Below, piece by piece: positions 6,990 to 61,021 of a DNA stretch of 64,000 nucleotides. Every line of letters starts with the position of its first letter. Position 1 is the first letter of the stretch. The position numbers and the translations under genes were made by a program. Under the pieces are notes generated by a model. The model saw only the letters and a list, made by a program, of their open reading frames with translations. It was not told where the DNA came from and ran no database searches. Origin of the DNA: a virus; IMG/VR virus record IMGVR_UViG_3300021963_000041, positions 62,001-126,000 of that record; one strand, 5' to 3'.

Positions 6990-6997
6990 TATAAATA
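6990..6997 (-). promoter_or_regulatory. TATTTATA motif before the 100-residue tail gene
   Basis: Sits 5 bases after a terminator (7003-7032) and 13 bases before the ATG at 6976; probable late promoter core for the tape measure and baseplate genes. Confidence 0.6.
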
Positions 6998-7002
6998 TTG
7001 TC

Positions 7003-7032
7003 AAAAAAGGAAAGCCAACCGAAGTTGGCTTT
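7003..7032 (-). terminator. Rho-independent terminator after the chaperone genes
   Basis: Coding-strand hairpin with stem AAAGCCAAC / GTTGGCTTT around a TTCG loop (7011-7032), followed by a T-run. It starts 3 bases after the stop of the frameshifted extension (7035), which supports that frame as the real 3' end of the gene. Confidence 0.85.
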
Positions 7033-7034
7033 TA

Positions 7035-7232
7035 TTATCTCTTTCCAGATTTTGCTTTTTCGTATGCTGCTTTTTCTGCCTCATGTTCTTTCTTTTTAAC
7101 ATCTGCCAACTTGAGGTAGAAGTATCTTCTAAGGTGTACTGGTAAAGTGTATAGGTCGTTGTAAGTCCAACCCATTTTTCCATAGTACATAAGATCAAAA
7201 ATCTGATCTTGTAGAATGGGCCTGTAATCAGA
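7035..7232 (-). CDS. Frameshifted C-terminal extension of the tail assembly chaperone
   Basis: This frame is +1 relative to the gp26-like gene and reads straight on from its last codons: S-D-Y-R-P-I-L-Q-D-Q-I-F, then MYYGKMGWTYNDLYTLPVHL, then RRYFYLKL and a Lys/Glu-rich helix, stop TAA at 7035-7037 (65 residues). The Tyr-x-Leu-Pro-Val-x-x-Arg-x-Phe-Tyr pattern resembles the short chaperone extensions found before tape measure genes. The 4-G run at 7233-7236 allows a +1 slip giving Trp-Pro-Gly-Ser-Asp; the 7-T run at 7242-7248 allows a -2 slip. The only internal ATG (7188-7190) has no visible ribosome binding site. The fusion product would be about 355 residues. A single-base sequence error is the main alternative. 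Confidence 0.7.
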   Translation of the reverse strand, partial: SDYRPILQDQIFDLMYYGKMGWTYNDLYTLPVHLRRYFYLKLADVKKKEHEAEKAAYEKAKSGKR

Positions 7233-8103
7233 CCCCAGGCCAAAAAAACCCTACTCCAATGGGCAACGCCATCTTTTCTTGTTCAAAGCCACAACTCGGA
7301 CACTCAAATGAGAATGTTGTATCGATATCTGGAGTAATCTCTTTTAGGTATTTGCGTAGTTCTAAAGAATCTCTAGACAACATACTATCAACAAATTTGT
7401 TTACTACAGCTCTATCTGTCTCCCCTTCAACAGCTACGATCATATGTTTCAATCGTGTTGAAAGCTCAGGATCAACTCCCGTAAGACGACTTAGCTTTTT
7501 AGTAGCCTTGATAGCATCTTCAATTTTCTTTTCATCACCGTGAGTTAAAAACTTCAATGTAATCTCTTTTTTGGAGATTGGTAATGTGAAATTGTGTGTT
7601 GTTTGACCTTTTGTAAAGCGATCCCAATCGATCTCCTTATCTTCAAATTGTTGAAGGTCAATTACATGATTTGACTTTTCACCACAACTTGGACAAGTGA
7701 TCTCTACCTCATAATCTTTACCATACGCAAGAATACGAGCTGCAATAAAGATTGCGTTTTTGTCAACAGTTAACAAGTCGTTGAAGTTAATTTTTGTAAC
7801 AATCAATGATTGCAACAACTTATCTAATACAATACCTTGTTTGATAAGACTCTGCGATGTTAGGATATCCTCCTCCTTAGCAGTCATATACTTCATCTCA
7901 ATAGTACCACCTGATAATGGATGTCCTTCTGGATAGAAGTATCCTTTACTTGGAAGTGGAATTATCTCCGTTGGTGTATCTGATTTAGTGAAAGTTTCAA
8001 CAGCTCCTGTGTTGATTGAGTCTGCCAAGAATTTGGCTTTGATCTCTTCGTCTGTTAGTTGGCGATTGTTTGTTGGGTAATCGTCGTTTACAACTTTTGT
8101 CAT
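7228..8103 (-). CDS. T4 gp26-like baseplate/tail assembly protein (zero-frame product)
   Basis: A 291-residue protein. Residues 48-105 hold the hallmark LPSKGYFYPEGHPLSGG, then IEMKYMTAKEEDILTSQSLI and VLDKLLQSLI, which I recognise as the T4 gp26 family (T4_baseplate). Two Cys pairs, ITCPSCGE near residue 136 and FECPSCGFE near 273, suggest a zinc ribbon split by an inserted helical region. The zero frame ends in FFWPGV at a TGA (7228-7230), exactly where another frame continues a conserved protein. Position between tube and tape measure genes is that of G/GT-type tail assembly chaperones, so it may act as the short form. A TATTTATA motif lies 34 bases upstream. Confidence 0.85.
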   Translation of the reverse strand: MTKVVNDDYPTNNRQLTDEEIKAKFLADSINTGAVETFTKSDTPTEIIPLPSKGYFYPEGHPLSGGTIEMKYMTAKEEDILTSQSLIKQGIVLDKLLQSLIVTKINFNDLLTVDKNAIFIAARILAYGKDYEVEITCPSCGEKSNHVIDLQQFEDKEIDWDRFTKGQTTHNFTLPISKKEITLKFLTHGDEKKIEDAIKATKKLSRLTGVDPELSTRLKHMIVAVEGETDRAVVNKFVDSMLSRDSLELRKYLKEITPDIDTTFSFECPSCGFEQEKMALPIGVGFFWPGV

Positions 8104-8137: not shown

Positions 8138-8145
8138 TATAAATA
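8138..8145 (-). promoter_or_regulatory. TATTTATA motif before the gp26-like gene
   Basis: Lies 34 bases before the ATG at 8103 and 8 bases after the terminator of the tube gene. Confidence 0.6.
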
Positions 8146-8153
8146 TACGCAAA

Positions 8154-8190
8154 TAAAAAAAGAAAGCCAACAGTTAAGTCAGCTTTCTTT
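8154..8190 (-). terminator. Rho-independent terminator after the tail tube gene
   Basis: Nine-base stem AAAGAAAGC / GCTTTCTTT, extendable inward with wobble pairs, then a run of seven or more T on the coding strand. Confidence 0.8.
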
Positions 8191-8716: not shown

Positions 8717-8724
8717 TATAAATA
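8717..8724 (-). promoter_or_regulatory. TATTTATA motif before the tail tube gene
   Basis: Ends 17 bases before the ATG, in the 25-base gap after the sheath gene. Confidence 0.55.
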
Positions 8725-11109
8725 TTAAGCGTTGTCAAAAGTTGCTCCAGTAGGAAGAATGTTAAAGTCAAGAACGATAAATTCTGCTGCTTTAGCTGGT
8801 TGTAAGTAAATTTGACCGTACATGATGTTTCTGTCGATTACATCAGGTGTGTTGTTAGTCTCATCCATTACAACTTTGAAAGCATAAAGACCTTGACGAG
8901 CTTTAACTGTTTCTAAGTATGGAGTTACGATGTTCAAGAAACGTTGACGTGTAGCTGTAGTATTGTTTTCGAATACCAAATAGCGGCTAGCACTTGCAAT
9001 GTATTTCTTCATTGTGATCATTAAACGTCTTACATTGATACGATCAAGAGCTGATGGTTTAGCTTGTAGAGTTTTTTGACCCCAGATACAAATTCCTTGG
9101 TTAGGGAATGTTGCAATTGCATTGATCTTGTTTTCGTATAAGTCGTTTCTATCAGCTTGGTTAAGTTTCAATTCAACATCAACTGCTTCAGAGATACCTC
9201 CACGGTTTAGACCAGCTGGTGCAAACCATTCGTAAGCTACTGAATCGTTGTAAGCCATTACACGTGGAACAACAACACTAGGTGGAACCCATACTGGTTT
9301 GTTCTTGTTTGTGTCTAGGATTTTAACCCATGGCCAGTAAGTACCTACGTAGTTAGAATCGATTCCTGAGTCAGTTACTGCTGCGATTGCTGCTGCTGCT
9401 GATTGACCTTGGATAACTGGATCTGCGATTACAAATGCATCTCCACGATCTTCTGCTACTTCGATAGCTTTATTAACGATAGCTGAGTGATCTTTAATTG
9501 TAGCACCTGGAGTAACGATTAAGTTAACATCATATTCATCAGAGTTGCTGATTACATTGAGTGCTTTTACATATCCTACTGAACCTTTTGCAGTTGCAGT
9601 TGAACAATCCATACCAAACAAGTTAGTAGCTGTGATTGCTGAACCTACTTTCTTAACGATTGCTGGGTCCATACCATCAAATCCACCTTGGAATGGTACT
9701 GTAAATTTCAAGAATGTGCTTACGTCTAATCCAGCGAATAATGATGCAGAGATTGAAGAACCTCCCACAAATGTTGAGCTGTCGTTTAATTTAGAAGCAC
9801 TTGCGTGAATGAAACAAGCATCAAGGTTGAATGCAGCATTATTCATTGCTGATGTACCAAGAGCTAATGGTTTCAAGTAGTTTTCGTTATCTGCTGTAGA
9901 CCAGCTCCATCCGTAGTAAGCTTTCTTATTGTAAGCGCTATTGATCTCGGTGTTTTGAGTCACCATAGATGCAGTTGGCATTGCGTAGCTAGAAGATACT
10001 GGCTGGATTACTGCAGCAAAACCAAAAGGTTTTACGTTTGCTGTAATCGCTTTAGCTGATACAGCTGAATCAACTTCTACACGAATGTATTTAGAAATGT
10101 TGTTGTAATCTCCAGTTACAGATACTACACCTGCTGAACTTACTGAGTAAGCTTTATCACCAATTCGACGAGCGATGTAATTAGATGAATCTGGATCTAA
10201 ATTAAGACCAGTGAATGATTCTAAGATAACTGGACGTTGGTCTGTATCATTGTAGTCACGAACTACTACTGTGAATGATCCATAATCGCTTCCTGCATCA
10301 TCTCCAGGTAGAGTTGTGTTGATTACAGCAACTTTAAATGAAGTGTTTGTGTCAGTGCCATCAGCAAGAGTGTGAATCTTAAATAAGTTTAGTTTCTCGT
10401 TACCAATGATTTGTGATTGAATCCATGGAGTCTCAGCGTTTGAGTATGCACCTGCTGAACCAGATAGATCAACTTTTGCATTAGCTGATTGAGATACGAA
10501 GCTTACAGATCCAGATAAACCTGGAGTAGTTGCTAGGTAACCACCAAACCAAGTGTACATATAACCCTTCTTACCACCTTTTACGGATTGGCCAAGTACA
10601 TTGGCAAAAGAGTTAACATTTGCTGGGTTAGCAGATGCAGTAAGTGCTTGTGCAGTTACGCTTGAACCAGAAAGCTGGAATCCGAAAGATCCAGTTACGC
10701 TACCTGCTTGGAAAGCGGTAAAATCTGATTTAGTGTATCCGTTACCAGTAGAAGAACCTACAGTGGTAGTTGGCATAATAACACCAACCAATCTAGTGAT
10801 TGATCCAGTAGTGTGGATGATTTGTACTGCGTCAGCATTGTAGCCTCCCTCAGACAATACACGAACCACAGTAACAGTTGAAGCGCTATTCAAGTAGCTC
10901 TTAACTGCATATGGTACGTATGTTTCTTCGCTTAAGCCACCGAACTTAGCAATAAAGTCATCAAATGAAGTGACAACTGTCGGTACAAAAGCAGGTCCTT
11001 TTACTGTTGGACCAATGATTGCAGCTCCGATTGCTGCAATACCTGCAGGTAAAAACGAGAGGTCTTTCTCGTTTGTAAATACACCTGGTGATACTATTCT
11101 TTCAGCCAT
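8725..11109 (-). CDS. Tail sheath protein (T4 gp18-like)
   Basis: A 794-residue protein, longer than T4 gp18 (659). The N-terminus AERIVSPGVFTNEKDLS, then a hydrophobic AAIGAAIIGPTVKGPAFVPT segment and FGGLS, is the standard start of myophage sheath proteins. The C-terminal 130 residues (LNRGGISEAVDVELKLNQAD, then INAIATFPNQGICIWGQKTL, then IYLQPAKAAEFIVLDF) match the conserved sheath core that forms the handshake between subunits. The middle, about residues 110-480, is Ser/Thr-rich and probably surface-exposed. A TATTTATA motif lies 28 bases before the ATG. Confidence 0.95.
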   Translation of the reverse strand: MAERIVSPGVFTNEKDLSFLPAGIAAIGAAIIGPTVKGPAFVPTVVTSFDDFIAKFGGLSEETYVPYAVKSYLNSASTVTVVRVLSEGGYNADAVQIIHTTGSITRLVGVIMPTTTVGSSTGNGYTKSDFTAFQAGSVTGSFGFQLSGSSVTAQALTASANPANVNSFANVLGQSVKGGKKGYMYTWFGGYLATTPGLSGSVSFVSQSANAKVDLSGSAGAYSNAETPWIQSQIIGNEKLNLFKIHTLADGTDTNTSFKVAVINTTLPGDDAGSDYGSFTVVVRDYNDTDQRPVILESFTGLNLDPDSSNYIARRIGDKAYSVSSAGVVSVTGDYNNISKYIRVEVDSAVSAKAITANVKPFGFAAVIQPVSSSYAMPTASMVTQNTEINSAYNKKAYYGWSWSTADNENYLKPLALGTSAMNNAAFNLDACFIHASASKLNDSSTFVGGSSISASLFAGLDVSTFLKFTVPFQGGFDGMDPAIVKKVGSAITATNLFGMDCSTATAKGSVGYVKALNVISNSDEYDVNLIVTPGATIKDHSAIVNKAIEVAEDRGDAFVIADPVIQGQSAAAAIAAVTDSGIDSNYVGTYWPWVKILDTNKNKPVWVPPSVVVPRVMAYNDSVAYEWFAPAGLNRGGISEAVDVELKLNQADRNDLYENKINAIATFPNQGICIWGQKTLQAKPSALDRINVRRLMITMKKYIASASRYLVFENNTTATRQRFLNIVTPYLETVKARQGLYAFKVVMDETNNTPDVIDRNIMYGQIYLQPAKAAEFIVLDFNILPTGATFDNA

Positions 11110-11137: not shown

Positions 11138-11145
11138 TATAAATA
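11138..11145 (-). promoter_or_regulatory. TATTTATA motif before the sheath gene
   Basis: Ends 28 bases before the ATG at 11109. Confidence 0.55.
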
Positions 11146-11175
11146 TCACAACATACAGCGAAACCTTAAAATACC

Positions 11176-11473: not shown

Positions 11474-11481
11474 TATAAATA
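11474..11481 (-). promoter_or_regulatory. TATTTATA motif before the 90-residue coiled-coil gene
   Basis: Ends 25 bases before ATG 11448; its position supports that start over an upstream ATG. Confidence 0.5.
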
Positions 11482-11501
11482 TGTTGTTTTGTTTGTAAAC
11501 C

Positions 11502-12131: not shown

Positions 12132-13958
12132 TTATATTATTGTCACGTTTGTTAATAAACCGTTTGTAAAGTCCATAATAACTGTCGCACCTCTTGGGTC
12201 GGCAACCATAACCGATGCAGTCATACCAGTTGTACCACCACCAGATCCTGGAGGTCCTGGAGGGCCAGTAGGTCCAGTTGGGCCTGGAGCTCCATCGGAT
12301 CCTGCGGGACCAGTAGGTCCAGGTGCCCCAGTGGGGCCTGGAGATCCAGTTCCTGAAGGTCCGGTAGGTCCGGTAGGTCCTGGACTGCCAGTAGGTCCAC
12401 TAGGTCCAGTTGGGCCAGTTGGTCCAGGTGCTCCTCTTAATGCTGCTAAGAAGGCAGATTCTGTTCCACTATTACCTAAAGCTAACCAAGACTCATAAGC
12501 TGAACGACCAGTAGCTCCAGTAGGACCAGTTGGACCAGGTCCACCAGTAGGTCCAGTTCCACCACTCGGTCCTGGAGGGCCAGTTGGACCAGGTCCGCCA
12601 TTAGTTCCACTAGGACCTGGACTACCAGTTGGGCCAGTTGGGCCAGTGGGTCCAGTGGGACCAGTAGGACCTGATAAAGCATATGTACTTAGGTTCTCTG
12701 TAGTAACAAATGTGTATGGGCCTTTCTGTACACCACCCTCTAATCTTGAGTATTGAGGTGCTGTCCAGAATGGCATGATTAAGGTTTGGTTATAGTAGGT
12801 CTGTCCATCACCATGATTTGATATTATATAACTTGCCCAACTGCCATTATATCCTGCAATTCCAGATGGTGCTTGATACCAGGTCTGAGTACCGTTTCCA
12901 AACCCAGCGTTTGATAAAGCTCCTGCTGTATATGAAGTTGATCCTGCAGGTCCTGTGGGTCCAGTAGGTCCAGGTGATCCAGTAGGTCCACTAGGTCCTG
13001 GAGGGCCACTAGGTCCAGTTGGACCAGTAGGGCCAGTAGGTCCTGCTACTGTTGATCCAGGTCCGGTTGGGCCGGTAGGACCGGTAGGTCCAGGTGATCC
13101 AGTTGGACCAGGTGAGCCAGTAGGACCGCTTGGTCCAGTAGCTCCAGTAGGTCCAGTGGGCCCTGTCGGTCCAGTAGGACCAGTAGCCCAAGAAGATAAT
13201 CCAGTGCTTGTGTAGTAGGTTCCTCCACTAGGAATCGTTACCATTCCAGGCAACCATTTTAGTGAGCTATTATCTCCATTATGAACTGCAATCAATACCC
13301 AACCATCGACTACTTGGACTGATCCATCGTTGTAAGGAAGTACCACAAGTTTGTTTGAATCGTAGGTATTGGCCATTCCACGAGCCACTTTGTAATAAAC
13401 TCCTGACCATGCAGGTACTAATAAATTGGAAACTGGTCCAATATCTAAATAACCACTAGCTGCTTGACTATTGTCAGCAGGAATGACAATTACTCGCTCA
13501 CCCCACGATACTCTACCACCTGACCATGTTACAGTACCTCCACCGTTAACTGCATAGTTTGCGTTAGCAGTTTCATATTCTGTTGGGCCAGTAGGTCCAG
13601 TTGCACCCGTAGGACCAGTAGGGCCAGTAGGCCCAGTTGGGCCACTTGGTCCTGGAGGGCCAGTCGGTCCAGTGCTTCCATTGGTTCCACTAGGGCCAGT
13701 AGGACCGGTAGGTCCAGTCAGACCAGTATCCCCTTTCAATCCCTGAGGTCCACTAGGGCCAGTCGGTCCAGTGGGTCCACTTGGTCCTGGAGGTCCACTT
13801 GGTCCAGTTGAACCTGGAGATCCAGTAGGGCCAGTTGGTCCACTTGGTCCAGTAGGTCCAGTAGGTCCTATAAATTGAGGATAGCTACTAGCATCGAAAT
13901 TACCAGTATGTAGAGCTTCGTTACCTCCTATGGTTGTTCCTGTTTTTAGCTTAGCCAT
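12132..13958 (-). CDS. Collagen-like tail fibre protein
   Basis: A 608-residue protein with four blocks of Gly-x-y triplets, mostly Gly-Pro-Thr with Gly-Pro-Ser, Gly-Ser-Pro and Gly-Pro-Pro, at residues about 30-127, 258-345, 430-482 and 510-575. They alternate with globular segments of 60-130 residues rich in Tyr, Trp, Gly and Ser. Collagen-like triplets form trimeric rods, and phages use them in tail fibres. The N-terminus ([18 protein letters not shown]) resembles fibre attachment ends. Prolines occur in the Y position in Ser-Pro-Gly, Pro-Pro-Gly and Ala-Pro-Gly, the type of site used by collagen prolyl hydroxylases. The start overlaps a 53-codon gene by one base. Confidence 0.88.
12239..12432. 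repeat. GPT triplet block 4 of the 608-residue fibre
   Basis: Nine-base Gly-Pro-Thr/Ser units near the 3' end of the gene, with codon variation between units. This block has the most Gly-Ala-Pro and Gly-Pro-Pro triplets. Confidence 0.9.
12503..12672. repeat. GPT triplet block 3 of the 608-residue fibre
   Basis: Gly-x-y triplets interrupted by a Gly-Thr-Asn-Gly-Gly step. Synonymous codons vary between units, so slippage in replication is reduced. Confidence 0.88.
12946..13191. repeat. GPT triplet block 2 of the 608-residue fibre
   Basis: About 27 Gly-x-y triplets with one break (Gly-Ser-Thr-Val-Ala) near the middle. Confidence 0.9.
13583..13868. repeat. GPT triplet block 1 of the 608-residue fibre
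   Basis: About 32 consecutive Gly-x-y triplets. It includes [16 protein letters not shown], which is also present in the other collagen-like fibre gene. Confidence 0.9.

Positions 13959-15595: not shown

Positions 15596-15596
<1 letters not shown>
14124..15596 (-). CDS. Tail fibre protein with C-terminal ILEI/FAM3-like domain
   Basis: A 490-residue protein. The first 330 residues are rich in Trp, Tyr and Asn and look like a beta-sandwich adhesin: one stretch contains FRYPNISAASTWGGLAFYPP and a later one IGFSYEDQGSRGTHVYVDNI, the style of carbohydrate-binding jelly rolls. Residues about 355-475 match the ILEI/FAM3 pattern: GGRGLRLTIIDEASVSVVFD, then VYDTYGDDSARTALANKLAT, then VWVMTSFDAINPN and a closing glycine-rich turn. 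That domain is known from animal secreted proteins and also from glycan-related bacterial and phage proteins. It overlaps the stop of the upstream collagen-like gene by one base. Receptor binding is the likely role. Confidence 0.7.
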
Positions 15597-20603
<5,007 letters not shown>

Positions 20604-22718: not shown

Positions 22719-22726
22719 TATAAATA
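22719..22726 (-). promoter_or_regulatory. TATTTATA motif before the 495-residue fibre gene
   Basis: Ends 30 bases before the ATG at 22688, just after the 179-residue gene. Confidence 0.55.
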
Positions 22727-22743
22727 TGCTGTAGTATTAGAAA

Positions 22744-47234: not shown

Positions 47235-47775
47235 TCTTTAAGGTGTCTTGAATATAAATATGTTTGGAATCGAGTTCACGCTTTAATTTAGCAATCTCTA
47301 ACTGCATTTTCTCTGTTCTATCGAGTAAGGTTACTAATAGACGTCCTAATGAGGTATCTTTCAGTTGTTCGTAATTCTTTAAGAAGATATCATCAACAAC
47401 AGCATTACCATCAACAAATAACCTATAGTCTTTATATAATCCCTCATCCAACGATTGACCAATATAAACCCTCTCCATATTACGTAGTGGTACAATCTCA
47501 CGGCGCTCAATATCCTTTGTTAGTGGATTGTATGCTAAATAATGTAAGATAAAATATATAGCGTCACCTTTTAATTGCTTGTCAGTTGATGGCGTTCCTA
47601 TCCTCAGTGTATATGGGTTATCAGTATGTTTTTGTTTTATATCAACAATACTCTCGCCATTCCAAGCTTGATACACATTCTTGATAAGAATCTTACCGAG
47701 TGTATGCTCGTTGAGCAGCCCTTGTATTGCTGGGAAGGGTCTTGTACAGTTTCTTATAGTGTTGTTACCTATCAT
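47227..47775 (-). CDS. Structural or assembly protein with C-terminal coiled coil
   Basis: A 182-residue protein. The body has KGDAIYFILHYLAYNPLTKD and EGLYKDYRLFVDGNAVVDDI; the last 40 residues (LVTLLDRTEKMQLEIAKLKR) form a coiled coil likely to trimerise. It ends inside the start of the ligase gene (8-base overlap), and a TATTTATA motif for that gene sits in its final codons. It follows the 457-residue structural gene by 10 bases. Function unknown. Confidence 0.55.
   Translation of the reverse strand: MIGNNTIRNCTRPFPAIQGLLNEHTLGKILIKNVYQAWNGESIVDIKQKHTDNPYTLRIGTPSTDKQLKGDAIYFILHYLAYNPLTKDIERREIVPLRNMERVYIGQSLDEGLYKDYRLFVDGNAVVDDIFLKNYEQLKDTSLGRLLVTLLDRTEKMQLEIAKLKRELDSKHIYIQDTLKNE
47253..47260 (-). 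promoter_or_regulatory. TATTTATA motif before the nucleotidyltransferase-ligase gene
   Basis: Lies inside the last codons of the 182-residue gene (Ile-Tyr), 18 bases before the ATG at 47234. Confidence 0.5.
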
Positions 47776-51283: not shown

Positions 51284-51291
51284 TATAAATA
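51284..51291 (-). promoter_or_regulatory. TATTTATA motif before the 705-residue structural gene
   Basis: Ends only 4 bases before the ATG at 51279; fills the 16-base gap after the Mre11-Rad50 gene. Confidence 0.55.
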
Positions 51292-51295
51292 TCTC

Positions 51296-59070: not shown

Positions 59071-59078
59071 TATAAATA
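59071..59078 (-). promoter_or_regulatory. TATTTATA motif before the 520-residue structural gene
   Basis: Ends 4 bases before the ATG at 59066 and starts 5 bases after a terminator. Confidence 0.6.
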
Positions 59079-59083
59079 TGGCT

Positions 59084-60995: not shown

Positions 60996-61003
60996 TATAA
61001 ATA
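60996..61003 (-). promoter_or_regulatory. TATTTATA motif before the 251-residue virion gene
   Basis: Ends 15 bases before the ATG at 60980. Confidence 0.55.
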
Positions 61004-61021
61004 TGTCTTGTTTTGTAAATC

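Follow-up and report, generated by a model that had tools for sequence, protein, structure and literature searches.

A 64,000-nt window of a 127-kb uncultured virus record was analysed, and it very likely encodes two forms of a tail assembly chaperone: a short protein, TAC-N, and a longer one, TAC-NC, which would arise by +1 slippage of the ribosome at UUU_UUU_UGG, a site followed by a hairpin. As judged from evidence that is comparative throughout, a few ribosomes probably slip forward by one base near the end of the gene and thereby give rise to the longer second protein. A G/GT-type chaperone with a programmed frameshift had already been suspected in the first-pass annotation, and this reading is now strongly supported by a conserved slip site, by relatives in which the two frames are never fused, and by coding selection on the extension.

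The genes concerned lie on the minus strand in the order tail tube, gp26-like gene, +1 extension, terminator, 100-aa ORF and tape-measure-like protein. The gp26-like ORF (8103-7228) codes for TAC-N, a protein of 291 aa with two CxxC motifs, and ends at TGA 7230-7228, exactly as first annotated. Profile searches placed this product in PF12322 (E 1.2e-16; 61.5 bits, above the curated cut-off of 24.5) and in PHROGs family phrog_150 (baseplate hub; E 5.7e-21). Its upstream neighbour (8699-8211) matches the tail tube family phrog_4542 (E 7.7e-26) and, under the curated cut-off, PF06841 (2.8e-4). The 860-aa downstream product (6670-4088) is assigned by its position and by its BLASTP match to a protein of Flavobacterium phage immuto that is annotated as tape measure (E 2e-24); the 100-aa ORF lying between it and the chaperone (6976-6674) has no family match above chance in Pfam or PHROGs. 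The proposed location of the chaperone between the major tail tube and tape measure genes is confirmed by these matches, and the same gene order was found in relatives as well. Matches in MAGs hint at a Bacteroidota host, although they do not settle it.

Several other features of the window were observed. Terminator hairpins at 7011-7032 and 8159-8190 separate successive tail genes, so the tube, chaperone and tape measure genes may form separate transcription units. The motif ATATTTATA occurs 10 times, always on the minus strand, versus 1.7 occurrences expected (6990-6998, 8138-8146, 8717-8725, 11138-11146, 11474-11482, 22719-22727, 47253-47261, 51284-51292, 59071-59079 and 60996-61004); several copies stand directly 5' of minus-strand gene starts and some right behind terminators, and the motif is possibly a late promoter. 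Long collagen-like GPTGPT repeats are present at 12132-13958 and 15596-17275, in probable tail fibre proteins.

From just beyond the T-run, the +1 frame is open up to TAA 7037-7035 and reads GLGSDYRPILQDQIFDLMYYGKMGWTYNDLYTLPVHLRRYFYLKLADVKKKEHEAEKAAYEKAKSGKR. Counted from GGC, this extension, TAC-C (7241-7035), comprises 68 codons plus the stop and brings the fusion TAC-NC to 355 aa; 65 codons of it follow the gp26-like stop directly. The intrinsic terminator with a TTCG loop reported behind it is indeed there (7032-7011, minus strand), two bases past the extension stop. Neither Pfam nor PHROGs contains a family match to the extension alone, and the lengths of out-of-frame continuations of the window's other ORFs were uninformative, being dominated by overlapping genes. 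The earlier impression that the continuation is protein-like is borne out far beyond chance by stop counts and codon-position bias. Among 122 close relatives, the first 150 nt after the gp26 stop contain no stops in the extension frame, whereas the two remaining frames have 253 and 558; in 48 independent pairs the substitutions at codon positions 1, 2 and 3 number 372, 183 and 983. The extension is evolving as a protein.

In 80 related contigs the extension, wherever it could be found, is always one base out of frame. The comparison was widened to further relatives and named phages: 265 loci with a complete gene were classified by a profile of the extension, 263 of them were kept, and 159 remained as distinct once near-copies (90% nucleotide identity) had been removed. 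The extension lies at +1 in 117 of these 159 and at -1 in the other 42; since the relatives have common ancestry, such locus counts are not independent events. A frame-0 match to the extension was found in none of the 265 loci, and none of the 263 relatives (159 distinct) carries the fused frame that a one-base error would predict. Homopolymers are error-prone, as one may reason, yet the arrangement is shared by 117 distinct +1 loci of independent assembly or isolation, the isolates Mel-JY01, immuto and SP15 among them. Because relatives never fuse in frame 0, and given the stop counts and the codon-position bias, a sequencing or assembly indel is excluded.

The extension could instead be a separate gene, starting at ATG 7190 or translated by coupled re-initiation after the gp26 stop. 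It is annotated as such in several phages, e.g. SP15, 121Q and P-SSM5. In two immuto-like loci (L262 and L267), moreover, the T-run is gone and the extension stands in a different frame, preceded by an ATG that closely follows the gp26-like stop; these look like true, natural conversions of a frameshift extension into a separate gene, with the slip site lost along with the need for it. They are the only relatives in which the extension appears to be independent. Elsewhere the position of the start codon is inconsistent, conserved residues precede ATG 7190 of the window, and Shine-Dalgarno-like sites accompany 6 of the 117 distinct +1 loci, a scarcity which is weak evidence because the host may be a Bacteroidota. 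A separate gene would also leave unexplained why TTT TTT TGG CCT is retained, and why it is lost exactly where the extension stands alone. For the window this explanation is therefore very unlikely.

Two candidate slip sites had been pointed out, GGGG at 7236-7233 and seven T at 7248-7242, and both sequences are present. As GGGG is not conserved among the relatives (it is replaced by AGCC in loci L014, L090, L127 and L129), it was rejected. The slip site is the T-run, TTT_TTT_TGG (7248-7240, minus strand). Conservation of the site, raised in the first-pass annotation as a point to be checked, proved nearly complete: 96 of the 117 distinct +1 loci read TTT TTT TGG CCT, and variants are TTC TTT TGG, CTT TTT TGG, TTT CTT TGG (2 loci, in which slippage would be possible at either codon), GCT TTT TGG and TTT TTT TAY CCN. 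Named phages with a +1 extension have TTT TTT CAC (SP15), TTT TTT AGT (LIS04), TTC TTT CGT (SagM-GXN1), CTG TTT CGC (BRock) and TTT CTA (LR756508). Among 142 testable gene columns, the top three in synonymous conservation are the Pro codon and both Phe codons. The second Phe codon is TTT in all 109 of 109 +1 loci (background 74%), the Pro codon is CCT in 110 of 111 (background 28%), and the first Phe codon is TTT in 103 of 107. The 12-mer TTTTTTTGGCCT has a single occurrence in the 127-kb record. The chaperone gene of the window hence carries a C-terminal extension in another frame behind a conserved slip site near the stop, as G/GT-type genes do.

The T-run had originally been considered for a -2 shift, and of that proposal the site has been retained but the sense has not. 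A -2 shift within the seven-T run would enter the same frame but insert a further Phe (FFFGL); taken alone, the window's run would permit it, and such shifts are employed by phage Mu and arteriviruses (the TF protein in the latter; PMC5009743). In relatives with TTC TTT TGG, GCT TTT TGG, TTC TTT CGT, CTG TTT CGC or TTT CTA, however, the P-site codon is unable to re-pair two bases upstream, whereas re-pairing at +1 (UUU to UUN) works, and the variants leave the P-site tRNA of every +1 member able to re-pair at +1. Furthermore, UUU_CGU is a +1 site proven by mass spectrometry in influenza PA-X (PMC3498833). Since the variants bar -2 while this site is a proven +1 one, forward slippage offers an explanation common to all, and the shift is most simply read as +1 by the Phe tRNA; the -2 alternative seems improbable. 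Slippage of the transcribing polymerase on the seven-T run, yielding a mixed pool of mRNA, would be conceivable from the run itself, yet the same arrangement is found in relatives with runs of only 3-5 T, and long-run slippage of this kind is excluded where the site is TTC TTT TGG, TTC TTT CGT or CTG TTT CGC. The hairpin and the fixed third-base pattern likewise point to decoding, and transcriptional slippage is very unlikely.

The hairpin, GGGUCUG-AUUA-CAGGCCC (7235-7218, minus strand), begins 7 nt past the slip codon and consists of 7 bp, 7235-7229 pairing with 7224-7218, and a 4-nt loop; the stop codon of the gp26-like gene straddles the 5' arm's end and the loop. In an alignment of 46 distinct rows picked by gp26 identity alone, 91% of the hairpin cells are paired, as opposed to 15-61% with the partner slid. 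A reading of the sequences indicates that part of the non-pairing cells belongs to loci in which the 3' arm is shifted by one base and a shorter stem remains. Changes on both sides occur in three pairs (GC to CG twice and GC to AU once), and the covariation score was reached by none of 500 shuffles. The folding z-score of the 45 nt downstream of the slip site is -3.8, while folding the 60 nt that surround the site as a single sequence gave nothing out of the ordinary (z -1.0). The hairpin is limited to the clade of the window; +1 relatives further away either lack it or have a different one.

Taken as a forward slip of tRNA-Phe, the event may be pictured as follows. The majority of ribosomes would terminate at TGA 7230-7228 and release TAC-N. 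In a minority, with the A site waiting on UGG and the ribosome slowed by the hairpin 7 nt downstream, the peptidyl-tRNA-Phe would shift at UUU_UUU_UGG to the overlapping UUU, from 7245-7243 to 7244-7242. Reading would then resume as GGC-CUG-GGG-UCU-GAU, the next codon being GGC 7241-7239, and TAC-NC would acquire the predicted three-helix TAC-C. By analogy with lambda G/GT, TAC-N may coat the tape measure protein and TAC-C may recruit tube subunits. The occurrence of slippage, its efficiency and the assembly role we infer from this arrangement.

TAC-N and the extension were modelled as two separate parts with AlphaFold (AF2), and both gave confident models (pLDDT 88 and 90, respectively), that of TAC-C consisting of three helices. 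Among viral models, those matched by TAC-N carry the annotation of T4-like baseplate hub proteins (SP-15, E 3.5e-20). In a Foldseek search against the PDB, the HK97 chaperone 2ob9 appeared at ranks 2 and 3 for TAC-N with a non-significant E of 1.0, and nothing was found for the extension.

In the jumbo phages 121Q, CBB, Munch, PA5oct, Atu_ph07, XacN1 and others, as well as in cyanophages, Rhizobium phage LG08 and Vibrio phage VmeM-32, the extension lies in the -1 frame behind NNT TTT TTY. These sites form the heptamer T_TTT_TTY at the same Phe-Phe as the +1 sites, and many of them are followed by stable hairpins of their own. In P-SSM5 (L165, 3193-3366) and other cyanophages, the annotated 57-aa 'gp51' continues gp26 in the -1 frame, with T_TTT_TTC ahead of it and a strong hairpin downstream of that site, and is for this reason probably not a separate gene. 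The two types of extension are homologous (hhalign probability 96.5%, E 8.8e-10). In the window, TTTTTTT is preceded by G and the extension is in the +1 frame, so the -1 pattern X_XXY_YYZ does not apply. A T precedes the Phe pair in 40 of 40 -1 loci versus 2 of 109 +1 loci, where 44 would be expected from synonymous usage; it looks as if the -1 heptamer were avoided. On a 60-row tree, some branches of which are weak, the +1/-1 label needs two changes.

T4 gp26, which ends at EFFELL, and T4 gp51 both match PF12322 in profile searches, and an hhalign comparison against a single sequence links the C-terminal part of gp51 to the -1 type extensions (87%, E 3.6e-6). The +1 type extensions gave no direct profile match to T4 gp51, their link to it going via those of the -1 type. 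The two T4 proteins look like a short/long pair encoded by separate genes. Vladimirov, Gautam and Davidson are said to have named genes 26 and 51 in the abstract of their 2022 study, with frameshifting reportedly conserved in several T4-like groups. According to the papers that cite it, that study (PMID 34826709) identified the T4-like chaperone genes (PMC10885494, PMC12846349), described some T4-like phages as having one short and one long chaperone gene and no frameshift (via PRFect, PMC10885494), with which the T4 pair seen here agrees, and reported poly-T -1 signals in T4-like chaperone genes (via PMC12846349); an earlier review had listed T4 as the exception to G-T frameshifting (PMC5009743). 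The link between T4-type factors and the G/GT scheme, which had seemed novel at first, is thus largely published already, as far as these citing papers convey. Judged against the 2022 study as they relay it, the apparent novelty lies in slipping forward, in the conserved signal that goes with it and in a change of sense inside a single family.

The window thus shares with T4-like gp26/gp51, as relayed, the PF12322 family, the short/long scheme and a poly-T shift site; it differs in that T4 has two genes and other T4-like groups shift by -1, whereas here the shift is +1, with another invariant site and a hairpin. With lambda G/GT and other long-tailed phage chaperones it has in common the gene organisation, the position between tube and tape measure and a C-terminal frameshift extension near the stop, but lambda uses -1 and the likeness is one of organisation. 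The Vandenendeviridae chaperone of phage Adele (PMC12846349) likewise has a conserved poly-T shift site (GTTTTT) and an extension overlooked by annotation, yet shifts by -1. Among phages in general, -1, -2 and +1 shifts all occur (PMC5009743): the Mu chaperone (-2) and Listeria phage PSA (+1 on CCC) also reach the +1 frame in structural or assembly genes, although at other slip sites and in other genes. Influenza PA-X (UCC_UUU_CGU; PMC3498833) shares the +1 slip of tRNA-Phe on UUU, and TTT CGT recurs at the slip of the relative SagM-GXN1; PA-X, however, belongs to a eukaryotic virus and, in the view of the review PMC5009743, has no stimulatory signal, unlike the hairpin-bearing site described here.

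It is likely that the sense of slippage was altered, within one orthologous chaperone family, at one and the same Phe-Phe. Jumbo phages and cyanophages would shift by -1 at T_TTT_TTY; the clade of the window would shift by +1 at TTT_TTT_TGG, as would Gram-positive and actinobacterial phages at related UUU sites; T4 uses a pair of genes; and in an immuto-like branch the extension is a gene standing alone. Because the slip sites are mutually exclusive, they make up a natural series in which one decoding switch would have been rewired in several ways while its two-form output was kept. In practical terms, where a small 'hypothetical' or 'gp51' gene is annotated behind gp26, as in 121Q, P-SSM5, SP15 and others, it probably encodes the C-terminal portion of a fusion protein. 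A large and mostly uncultured group of contractile-tail phages would thereby join those with frameshifted chaperones, and would do so with a forward slip, providing matched natural sites within one gene for asking what decides +1 rather than -1 slippage.
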